A DNA stretch of 39,565 nt, from the NCBI GenBank assembly GCA_947624955.1, contig CANQMM010000007.1:1-39565 (forward strand), read 5' to 3'. The DNA comes from an uncultured Bacilli bacterium. Its GTDB lineage: Bacteria; Bacillota_I; Bacilli_A; RF39; UBA660. A program made the position numbers and the translations under genes. Under the pieces are notes generated by a model. That model did not search any database and was not told the DNA's origin. It saw only the letters and a program-made list of their open reading frames with translations. Below, piece after piece: positions 19,776 to 26,021 of the stretch (the first letter of the stretch is position 1; every line of letters begins with the position of its first letter).

Positions 19776-22251
<2,476 letters not shown>

Positions 22252-22286
22252 ATTAATCACGTCTTTCTTTAACTGTTAAATTATAA

Positions 22287-23159
22287 CTAAATTAGGGATG
22301 AATGTCTATATCTTCGCAATGTTTTGGATATTATTTTAGTAATAAACGGAGCGATGAAGATAACGATATAGACGCTTTCATAGACATTGAGGGTGCTAAC
22401 GAGTAGCGCGCTAGTAATGCCAATAAATAAGGAGTAAATTAAAGTATCTTGTTTGGTAATAGGACTATAGATTGGAATAGTAGCTAGAAAGATGCTACTA
22501 AAGATAATTGTACTATTTAGGAAATTATGAAGAATAGTTGTAAAGCCATAAAAAGGACTTAAAATTAAGGATGTCAGAATAAAACTCCCGATAATTAATG
22601 GCGGAATGGTCTTTTTATAGATGGCCGTATTAAATAAAAAGATATAACTAATTAGACATAAGATGGTGCTTGTTGCGGAAATTCCCCCAAAACTTCGGCC
22701 AAAGAATAAATCTAAGGGACTGTAATAAAGATTGGTACTCAATTCATAACTATTTTGATAGGTATAGGTAGCAAATAAGACAAGATATAAGGCGATGATG
22801 ATTTTCGGTAAGATGAATAGATTAATGGGCTGATGGATAAATTTATTAAGCAAAAGGGTACCAATTAAACAGATTAAATAAATGATTATAGGGGTGTTAA
22901 TTGGGATAATCATCGCGCTAATTAGACAAAGTAAAGGCGTAAAGGAATTACTTACATCGTGATGTTGGAAATATTCAAAAGCATAACCGAAGAAATAAGC
23001 GCCAATAGGGATAATTAAAGGTTTTAAAATTATCCATAAATTAGATTGATAATAAAGATAAGGAATTATCCCATTTTTGTAAACCCCATATAAAATTAAA
23101 GGAATAAGGCAAAGGGTATAATTAGTAATTATTTTATTAATGGAATTATTACTGTGCAC
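22287..23159 (-). CDS. RnfD/NqrB-like membrane protein
   Basis: The 290-residue hydrophobic protein has about nine to ten helices. Residues 146-176, SPLDLFFGRSFGGISATSTILCL, resemble the region of RnfD/NqrB that carries a covalent FMN on Thr in an S-G-A-T-like motif; here it is S161-A-T163-S. Conserved RnfD-like features also include the helix after it with KKTIPPLIIGSFILT. In Rnf/Nqr complexes this subunit passes electrons to flavin in the membrane. The start is GTG, set by GGAGG eight bases before it inside the end of the RnfC-like gene, which it overlaps by 11 bases. No rnfA, B, E or G neighbours are seen. Confidence 0.62.
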   Translation of the reverse strand: MHSNNSINKIITNYTLCLIPLILYGVYKNGIIPYLYYQSNLWIILKPLIIPIGAYFFGYAFEYFQHHDVSNSFTPLLCLISAMIIPINTPIIIYLICLIGTLLLNKFIHQPINLFILPKIIIALYLVLFATYTYQNSYELSTNLYYSPLDLFFGRSFGGISATSTILCLISYIFLFNTAIYKKTIPPLIIGSFILTSLILSPFYGFTTILHNFLNSTIIFSSIFLATIPIYSPITKQDTLIYSLFIGITSALLVSTLNVYESVYIVIFIAPFITKIISKTLRRYRHSSLI

Positions 23160-24246
23160 GAGAATCGCCTCCTAGACTAATATGGGCGGGACAGTTATAA
23201 GTACATAAGCCGCAACGGCGACATTTTTTTATTTCTTCAGGATCTAGAGGATTAATTTGGAAAGGACAAGACGTGTAGCAAATGCCACAATTGATGCACG
23301 GTAGAGGTTTATCTTCTTGTGGTGGCAGAATGTAAAGAGCTTTGGTTGTGTTATCGATCAGGTAATTAAAAGGGTCGATAGTTTGCTTTAATAAAAGATT
23401 ATTTAAATAATAAATTTGGTCTTTCGGAAGATTAAATTCGGTAATGATATCATTAAGGTTGGTATAGAGTTTGGTCTTTAAGATGAAAGACTTGCCACTT
23501 GGAATAATTATCGACAGATAGATTTCGGATAAGGGACGGAGTCTTTTAATTATTTCGTTAATCTCTAATAGTTCTTCGATGGTTATTAAAACCGTATTTG
23601 CCTCTTCTAAAGAAAGCTTATTACAGAGGATTTCTTTATAACCTAAAGGATACTCATCATTTAAGTAACGATATTGAATAAAGGGAAAACTACCAACGTG
23701 GTCATTATAGAATGCGATAGTTTCAGCATCAGTGTTTTTTAAAGTGAGAATAAATTCTTCGGGTTTTATAGTGGTATTTAATATTTCGCAAGTTTCTAAA
23801 ATTATTTCGCTTAAATTATTTAATAAATAAGTGCGGGTGTTAACATAGGGAACATCGTCGATACCATTAATGAGGATGGTGTGCGGAGATTTGGCTAGTT
23901 CTTCGATGATTTGCGGATTGGAAAAATGATAAGTCTGCAAGAGTTTAAAGATAATTTGGTCAGTATATTTAGCATATTTACTCGCTCTTTTCGGGGCTTC
24001 ATAGTTTTCCATAAAATCATTTTTGATGATTATTTGTTTTTCTTTAACGGCATAAATACTACCGGAAACGGAGGAAAAACAAACCGGGTCTTTAGTGACA
24101 ATCGAGTCTTTATATACCGAGCTTCCTTGAGTCAAATCATCTATTAAAGAACCATTTAAATAAATATAATTAGGATTTAAATATGTGGATATATTAGATT
24201 TGTAAGTAACATTTAAATCTTTGTTTAAACGACATGTTTGATACAT
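23149..24246 (-). CDS. RnfC-like iron-sulfur protein lacking the glycine-rich loop
   Basis: The 365-residue protein matches RnfC in its N-terminal barrel/lipoyl-like part (GSSVYKDSIV...FSSVSGSIYAV, about 35-65), then TILINGIDDVPYVNTRTYLL (123-142), which corresponds to the IINGxECEPYLxxDxRL region. Two ferredoxin clusters end it: C317-C320-C323-C327 and C342-C345-C348-C352. The GxGGAxFPTxxK loop that binds FMN/NADH in true RnfC is absent; the place before residue 123 is helical and has no glycines. It should bind two 4Fe-4S clusters but probably not NADH. It follows uvrC by 11 bases and overlaps the RnfD-like gene. Confidence 0.7.
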   Translation of the reverse strand: MYQTCRLNKDLNVTYKSNISTYLNPNYIYLNGSLIDDLTQGSSVYKDSIVTKDPVCFSSVSGSIYAVKEKQIIIKNDFMENYEAPKRASKYAKYTDQIIFKLLQTYHFSNPQIIEELAKSPHTILINGIDDVPYVNTRTYLLNNLSEIILETCEILNTTIKPEEFILTLKNTDAETIAFYNDHVGSFPFIQYRYLNDEYPLGYKEILCNKLSLEEANTVLITIEELLEINEIIKRLRPLSEIYLSIIIPSGKSFILKTKLYTNLNDIITEFNLPKDQIYYLNNLLLKQTIDPFNYLIDNTTKALYILPPQEDKPLPCINCGICYTSCPFQINPLDPEEIKKCRRCGLCTYNCPAHISLGGDSRAQ

Positions 24247-24257
24247 ACATACTACAC

Positions 24258-26021
24258 CTACTTCTTATAATTATTGAGATATTCTTGTAATAAAGTCGCA
24301 GTCTTTAGGGGAATTATTTGGGTTAATTCATCGAGAGAGGCTTCTTTCATTTTAGCAACACTACCAAAATGCTTAATTAATTCTTTTTTTCTTTTCGGGC
24401 CGATGCCTTCGATATTATCTAAGATACTAGCAATCGAACCTTTAGAACGGATGGTGCGGTGGTAGTTAATGGTATAACGGTGAACTTCATCTTGCATTCT
24501 AGTTAGATAATGGAAGACATCTTGGGAATGGTCAATGGCAATGACTGATAAATCACTATCGATTAATTCATTGGTACGGTGGTGGTTATCTTTTTTAAGA
24601 CCGACTACTTTAATTGGCAAACGAAGATTTTCAAGGACCTCACTCGCAGCTCTTATTTGGTTTTCTCCCCCATCGACAATGATTAGTTCGGGTAGTTCAC
24701 TTTTTTCGACCATCGCTCGGTAGTAACGGCGGTAAATAACCTCTTGCATCGTATGGTAATCATCGTTTTGGTCAACGGTTACTTTATATTTACGATATTC
24801 TTTTTTACAAGGGACACCATTTTTAAAAACAACCATACCACTAACGGAAAAACTACCAAAAAGATTGGAATTATCGAAGATATCGATACGATTGAGATTA
24901 GGAAGATGCAGTAAATTTTTTAAATCTTCATTAGCTTTAATACTCCTATTTTCATCTCTTTTAATGAGAGTCATTTCTCTTTCTAAATTATGTTTAGCAT
25001 TGGAAATGGCCATATCGAGGAGTTGTTTTTTATTGCCTCTTTGAGGGGTTAAGACTTTGGTATTCAAGATATTAGCTAAAATCTCTTGATTTATTTCGCT
25101 AGATACTAGAACTTCGGAAGGAACTTCGTTTTTTAAGTAAAATTTGGCAAGGTAATATTCGAATTCATCGACGGGTTCACCAATAATAGGGAATATTTTA
25201 CTTTGACTACCGACAAGTTTACCGTTGCGGATAAAGAAAAGTTCAATACTTAGATAGCCATTATCAAAATAATAAGCACAGATATCACGATTGACAAAGT
25301 CGTGGAGTTCAACTTTTTGCTTATTCATAATAATTTTAATATATTCGAGTTCATTTTTTAAATTGAGGGCCATTTCGTAATTCATAGCTTCGGAATACTC
25401 ATTAATTTTGGCTTTCAATTTATTGGTAATTATTTCGTCATTACCGCGAAGGAAGGAAAGAATATCTTTTTCCATTTCGACGAGTTTAGCACTATCGACT
25501 TTTTTAATACAATAACCGAGACATTCGCCAATATGATAATAAAGACAGACGTCTTTAGGCATACCTTCACATTTTTTTAAAGGATACAAGCGGTTTAAAA
25601 GACCAACTATGCGGCGAGCAGCATAACTATTGGGATATGGGCCGAAGATTTTCCGATCTTTATTTCTTTTTAACTTAGTATAACGAGCAACTTTTAAATG
25701 GGGAAAAGGATGGGAGTTATACTCGATATAGGGATAGGTTTTATCATCAGTAAGTAAGATATTATATTTAGGGTCATACTGTTTAATTAAATTGATTTCA
25801 ATGATGAAAGCTTCTAGTTCGCTACTAGCGACGATATAAGTAAAATCGGCGATCTCACTAATCATTTTAGCGGTCTTACCGGTATGCGTACGATTAAAGT
25901 AAGAGGACAAACGTTTATGGAGGTCTTTAGCTTTACCGACATAAATAATCGTGCCACTAGAATTTTTCATTTGGTAACTACCGGGTTTATGCGGTACTAA
26001 GGCTAATTTCTCTTTAAACAT
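24258..26021 (-). CDS. uvrC: UvrABC excinuclease subunit C
   Basis: UvrC makes both incisions in nucleotide excision repair. The domains are in normal order: GIY-YIG nuclease (PGSYQMKNSSGTIIYVGKAKDL, about 12-33), a Cys region (about 140-165), a UvrB-binding UVR motif near 190-225, the RNase H-like EndoV domain with IDIFDNSNLFGSFSVSGMVVF, and a C-terminal helix-hairpin-helix (NIEGIGPKRKKELIKHFGS). The length of 587 is typical. A TATAAT box 16 nt upstream and GGTGAT set the start. It lies close to trxA and cvpA, as in Bacillus. Confidence 0.96.
   Translation of the reverse strand: MFKEKLALVPHKPGSYQMKNSSGTIIYVGKAKDLHKRLSSYFNRTHTGKTAKMISEIADFTYIVASSELEAFIIEINLIKQYDPKYNILLTDDKTYPYIEYNSHPFPHLKVARYTKLKRNKDRKIFGPYPNSYAARRIVGLLNRLYPLKKCEGMPKDVCLYYHIGECLGYCIKKVDSAKLVEMEKDILSFLRGNDEIITNKLKAKINEYSEAMNYEMALNLKNELEYIKIIMNKQKVELHDFVNRDICAYYFDNGYLSIELFFIRNGKLVGSQSKIFPIIGEPVDEFEYYLAKFYLKNEVPSEVLVSSEINQEILANILNTKVLTPQRGNKKQLLDMAISNAKHNLEREMTLIKRDENRSIKANEDLKNLLHLPNLNRIDIFDNSNLFGSFSVSGMVVFKNGVPCKKEYRKYKVTVDQNDDYHTMQEVIYRRYYRAMVEKSELPELIIVDGGENQIRAASEVLENLRLPIKVVGLKKDNHHRTNELIDSDLSVIAIDHSQDVFHYLTRMQDEVHRYTINYHRTIRSKGSIASILDNIEGIGPKRKKELIKHFGSVAKMKEASLDELTQIIPLKTATLLQEYLNNYKK

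Follow-up and report, generated by a model that had tools for sequence, protein, structure and literature searches.

What can the RnfC and RnfD subunits of an Rnf complex do when the rest of the complex is gone? The question is raised by two adjoining genes in a stretch of 39,565 nucleotides (the window) from an uncultured Bacilli bacterium. The original prediction saw in them a reduced electron-transfer module, in which an RnfC-like protein that had lost its nucleotide-binding loop could pass electrons from a ferredoxin- or flavodoxin-like donor to a flavin, possibly carried on a Thr, in an RnfD-like membrane protein. Here the pair is examined by profile and structure comparison, in its own genome and across its family.

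An orphan RnfC/RnfD pair

The two genes, predicted to overlap, do so by 11 bases, both as minus-strand open reading frames with the RnfC-like gene upstream and the RnfD-like gene downstream (Table 1). Only 11 bases separate the pair from its uvrC-like neighbour and 26 from its queA-like neighbour and, because all lie on one strand, the four genes probably form a single transcript.

Table 1. Features of the RnfC/RnfD-like locus, in window coordinates
Feature	Position	Strand	Remarks
uvrC-like gene	24258-26021	same as pair	flanks the pair; named from sequence
RnfC-like gene	23149..24246	(-)	365 aa; two [4Fe-4S] sites; FMN/NADH loop absent
Deletion point of GxGGxxFPTxxKY FMN/NADH loop	23908..23913	(-)	RnfC-like residues about 112-113; from alignment
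First [4Fe-4S] motif CINCGICYTSCP	23263..23298	(-)	RnfC-like residues 317-328
Second [4Fe-4S] motif CRRCGLCTYNCP	23188..23223	(-)	RnfC-like residues 342-353
RnfD-like membrane protein gene	22287..23159	(-)	290 aa; GTG start
N113	22821..22823	(-)	RnfD-like; counterpart of riboflavin-contacting Asn (A. woodii N123), kept
Extracytosolic loop without canonical ApbE-flavinylated Thr stretch	22719..22745	(-)	RnfD-like residues 139-147; from alignments
T163	22671..22673	(-)	RnfD-like; aligns with T of GETS, about 30 residues past flavin-Thr stretch
I228	22476..22478	(-)	RnfD-like; replaces riboflavin-contacting Asp (A. woodii D249)
queA-like gene	21196-22260	same as pair	flanks the pair; named from sequence

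Pfam, NCBIfam and PDB sequence searches all place the proteins as RnfC-like and RnfD-like, as proposed. The membrane protein matches Pfam NQR2_RnfD_RnfE (PF03116) over its cut-off (E 1.7e-20). Its partner has two Fer4 stretches with both [4Fe-4S] motifs intact, and matches NCBIfam rnfC (E 4.5e-11) and the Nuo51 FMN domain PF01512 (E 3e-6), each under the model's cut-off; the RnfD-like protein is likewise under its NCBIfam subfamily cut-off. AlphaFold models of the single chains, each built on an alignment of 70 rows, reach pLDDT 93 for the RnfC-like and 95 for the RnfD-like protein and resemble the expected subunits. The best PDB match of the first is RnfC (9eri_C, E 2.3e-20, TM 0.81), the remaining strong ones being further RnfC chains and the Nqr counterpart NqrA. 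That of the second is RnfD (9eri_D, E 3e-7, TM 0.76), followed by further RnfD chains and the Nqr counterpart NqrB. The orphan, reduced pair is real, far beyond chance.

The genes rnfA, rnfE and rnfG, said at first to be missing beside the pair, are missing from the whole of its assembly (1.17 Mb in 65 contigs, 93% complete). No match was found there to RnfA/E (PF02508), to an RnfG-type FMN_bind domain (PF04205), to ApbE (PF02424) or to [FeFe]-hydrogenase (PF02906), and there is no second RnfD in the assembly. The Fer4_7 matches include no poly-ferredoxin RnfB, in a search blind to a mini-RnfB lacking Fer4 domains. A complete rnf cluster elsewhere was looked for in this assembly and not found. 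The same genome does encode a single-chain PFOR and a small ferredoxin. Immediately following a NifS-like gene there is also a fusion of a 2[4Fe-4S] ferredoxin with a thioredoxin-like domain (L167:8026-8649); all these names come from the sequence.

Clusters kept and cofactor sites lost

The iron-sulphur domain is the best conserved region of the RnfC-like protein. Each of its eight cluster cysteines is invariant in 70/70 alignment rows, and both motifs are present in RnfC of 78/78 named loci. The FMN/NADH loop has fared otherwise. In the alignment the window protein has no GxGGxxFPT block, as the original prediction had it, and its F and P are gapped in 29 of 30 sampled deeply reduced rows. 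The GWE and NNVST stretches, which by analogy with NuoF we take to be FMN contacts, are eroded in the reduced clade (30 sampled relatives). Deletion of the loop supports the suggestion that NADH is an unlikely partner.

In the RnfD of A. woodii, FMN is attached covalently to T156, and D249 and N123 contact riboflavin (PMC11889175). Counted along the PDB alignment, these residues lie in TVTTATPL, MATD and INPA, respectively. The window protein has a deletion where TTATPL would be, and the flavin Thr is gapped in 32/32 reduced rows. T163, which lies in an S-A-T triplet and had been put forward as the flavin Thr, aligns instead with the Thr of GETS; the location of A. woodii T156 and the lack of ApbE rule it out as an ApbE target. 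The T163 position holds T or S in 68/70 relatives despite the absence of ApbE. Most members of the reduced clade have T, S or A in place of the GETS Glu. The position of I228 holds D in 20/70 relatives and that of N113 holds N in 60/70. Of the four ligand residues named for RnfD, only N113 is kept in the window protein. With ApbE absent, the stretch deleted and the riboflavin Asp an Ile, the proposed delivery of electrons to a covalent flavin on T163 finds no support.

A different set of residues is nearly invariant in the 70-row alignment, namely Y27-K28-N29, E139, D150, G154 and K182, with E139 invariant in 30/30 relatives and E or D in 68/70. Because of this conservation, the RnfD-like subunit appears to be more than a passive anchor. 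A reading of the topology places the polar K28, N29, E139 and D150 probably on the extracytosolic side. A non-covalent flavin in the subunit is possible; because the riboflavin Asp is altered, so is a flavin-free subunit. With both that Asp and the GETS Glu changed, the protein may bind no flavin, and there would then be no cofactor in the membrane.

Distribution and selection within the family

In a sample of 386 genomes from the same family of uncultured gut bacteria, an RnfD-like gene is found in 189. RnfA/E matches over the cut-off accompany it in 60 of these; one further weak RnfA/E match contains stops and was discounted. Neither gene is present in the other 197. Four states are distinguished. 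In the full one a D-G fusion is accompanied by C, E, A and a mini-RnfB, and 51/60 genomes have ApbE. Where C and the D-G fusion occur without A/E, ApbE is found in 10/11. It is present in 7/19 C-D intermediates without A/E, most of which, among those read, keep the RnfC loop while some do not. ApbE is present in only 2/87 genomes with the reduced C-D state (4/99 with weak matches counted). The Fisher test (p 1e-27) is descriptive only, as it ignores shared ancestry. The deeply reduced type thus occupies 87-99 genomes, about a quarter of the sample, the sequence-level reading covering 56 loci and the remaining class calls coming from genus, frame length and score, with a weak tail that is possibly misassigned.

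Several features of the other states may be recorded here. Even in the fuller clusters (seven loci in seven genomes), RnfD is fused to RnfG and, where the sequence was read, RnfB is a protein of 85-94 aa with a membrane helix and an FeS domain. It has no ferredoxin domains, so its ferredoxin-docking part is absent. The combination of C, D-G fusion and ApbE without RnfA/E (four loci in four genomes) is another reduced Rnf state. In two genomes (G264 and G338) the ApbE match lies inside an open frame of ~691 aa and so may be fused to another domain. [FeFe]-hydrogenase co-occurs with 31/87 reduced, 6/60 full genomes and 46/197 with neither gene, a pattern that is suggestive of different ferredoxin sinks but is confounded by ancestry.

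The pairing of the two genes recurs in many genomes, with C directly upstream of D in every locus read and the genes overlapping in most cases. Among 80 named loci, 75 are C-D pairs with a spacing of -74 to +9 bases; these loci belong to uncultured Bacilli and related MAGs, by their titles mostly from animal guts (rabbit, goat, sheep, deer, chicken and mouse among others). The neighbours look like housekeeping genes, with names inferred from sequence: uvrC-like in 18/56 loci, dnaG-like in 17/56 (dnaG-rpoD also occurs) and queA-like in 7/56. The neighbourhood was therefore dropped as a clue to function, and in these loci it suggests neither an electron acceptor nor an extracytosolic partner. 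Beyond the family, the sampled genomes show only lower-scoring RnfD matches, mostly in longer frames, and for the deeply reduced type none above 200 bits in the genomes of the class that were sampled.

A tree was built from 54 C+D pairs; it is unrooted, was made by a quick method and has long branches. A branch with SH-aLRT 100 sets the 30 reduced pairs apart from the rest. For the intermediates this tree requires several changes, so losses of A/E appear to have recurred. Comparison of close pairs of reduced genes (Nei-Gojobori) gives dN/dS of 0.11-0.26 for C and 0.14-0.43 for D, values that point to functional genes and not to decay; together with the invariant cysteines they rule out pseudogenes. 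The C-D pair is kept by purifying selection across dozens of genera.

A possible electron-transfer module

We tentatively favour, with somewhat less than even confidence, a selected two-subunit module derived from Rnf, in which electrons would enter from ferredoxin, and not from NADH, and pass into an RnfD that carries no covalent flavin. The module would have arisen by stepwise loss, an origin supported by the intermediates within the same family. As in Rnf, the RnfC-like protein would dock on the RnfD-like protein from the cytosolic side. In Rnf, electrons pass from the RnfD riboflavin to the proximal RnfC cluster, and on through FMN to NAD+ (PMC11889175, PMC12174285). Since the FMN/NADH end is gone and the clusters are strictly kept, the clusters themselves would be the cytosolic port.

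The likeliest partner of these clusters, judging by genome content, is reduced ferredoxin; the PFOR and ferredoxins of the organism make such a donor plausible. That part of the original ferredoxin-to-flavin scheme stands, while its covalent flavin does not. Ferredoxin reduced by PFOR may exchange electrons directly with the two exposed clusters of the RnfC-like protein, which would hand them to the RnfD-like subunit. There the receiver could be a flavin bound non-covalently, or some other small acceptor, at those membrane and extracytosolic sites that are still conserved. Such a module would neither reduce NAD+ nor pump Na+ by the RnfA/E mechanism.

It is conceivable, though on the whole unlikely, that the pair is a new, self-sufficient class of redox device in the membrane, in which an Fe-S protein fed by ferredoxin sits on an RnfD lacking covalent flavin. 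Electrons would then go to a small acceptor, either at the membrane or beyond it, or else the redox state of the clusters would gate transport through the RnfD fold.

Alternative explanations

The RnfC-like protein could instead be a di-cluster ferredoxin docked at the membrane and feeding some other protein, with the RnfD-like subunit mainly an anchor. The strong conservation of the Fe-S domain would fit, and NqrA provides a precedent for an RnfC relative retained on a membrane subunit after losing its own cofactors (PMC12174285). However, the conserved polar residues of the RnfD-like protein would be superfluous in a pure anchor and no constant neighbour points to a partner enzyme, making this arrangement improbable.

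Also improbable is an RnfD-like subunit that, stripped of redox cofactors, acts as a channel or transporter sensed or gated by the clusters. Retention of N113 alone among the named ligands and the conserved polar K28, N29, E139, D150 and K182 are what such a protein might show, and the fold belongs to the urea/ammonium-transporter type, the next matches after RnfD and NqrB being urea transporters and Rh proteins. These matches are weak (E above 0.05), however; the profile search found no transport family matching the sequence, and the canonical RnfD fold is itself transporter-like (PMC9588780).

A module still linked to NADH, in which RnfC binds FMN and NAD(P)H through other residues, is very doubtful. 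The RnfC fold is retained, the Nuo51-like domain can still be recognised, if only under the cut-off, and relatives have C-D pairs with the loop, but the reduced clade has lost the loop and shows erosion of the GWE and NNVST stretches. A decaying remnant on its way to loss, already disfavoured, is most unlikely: the losses in the family are graded and 197 of the 386 genomes have neither gene, but dN/dS of 0.1-0.4, eight cysteines invariant over a deep clade and a C-D pairing that is always kept speak against it. That the missing genes simply fell into gaps of a 65-contig draft MAG is scarcely credible, since many other genomes of the family lack them too and both proteins carry internal deletions that match the gene losses.

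Significance

No description of a C-D-only Rnf module was found in the literature searched, and the pair is real and widespread, a variant apparently not yet described. Its preserved clusters, with the flavin-binding parts gone, suggest a simpler membrane electron device. It shows how far Rnf can be dismantled with the remaining part still under selection, with intermediates within one bacterial family. Here the C-D half also occurs apart from the A/E half that does the pumping, which is relevant to the open dispute about the subunits that move Na+, RnfD or RnfA/E. A further question raised by the pair is how ferredoxin is re-oxidised in gut bacteria that use PFOR and have no hydrogenase.

Comparison with known systems

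The closest relative is Rnf itself (RnfABCDEG; A. woodii 9eri, C. tetanomorphum 7zc6), with which the pair shares the RnfC and RnfD folds, the gene order C then D, the two [4Fe-4S] clusters of RnfC and the Asn of the RnfD riboflavin site. However, its genome lacks the RnfA/E membrane pair, which carries the in-membrane cluster of Rnf, as well as RnfG and ApbE, its C lacks the FMN/NADH loop, and its D lacks the covalent FMN site and has the riboflavin Asp changed. With several of the defining features tested absent, the pair does not belong to the Rnf complex in a functional sense; with moderate confidence, we read it as acting in the manner of Rnf's C-D half, minus the NAD end.

The two-subunit Nqr/Rnf-like systems (Meheust 2021, PMC8238504; PMC10979944) are similar in having a reduced RnfD relative without the flavinylated Thr. 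Non-covalent flavin binding has been proposed for this relative (PMC10979944), and one-way electron flow for the systems as such (PMC8238504, PMC10979944). In contrast to the window protein, which has PF03116 only, their RnfD is fused to an NAD-binding PF00175 domain, and its partner is an RnfG-like flavoprotein, whereas here the partner is an RnfC with Fe-S clusters and there is no RnfG or ApbE. In Na+-NQR, the RnfC relative NqrA sits without redox cofactors of its own on the RnfD relative NqrB; the window C, unlike NqrA, keeps its eight cluster cysteines, and NqrC-F are absent (no PF02508 or PF04205). PrdC, a soluble RnfC relative, shares the RnfC-type domain with Fe-S, but the window C scores far under the cut-off of that family (35 of 490 bits) and, in contrast to PrdC, always occurs together with a membrane RnfD.
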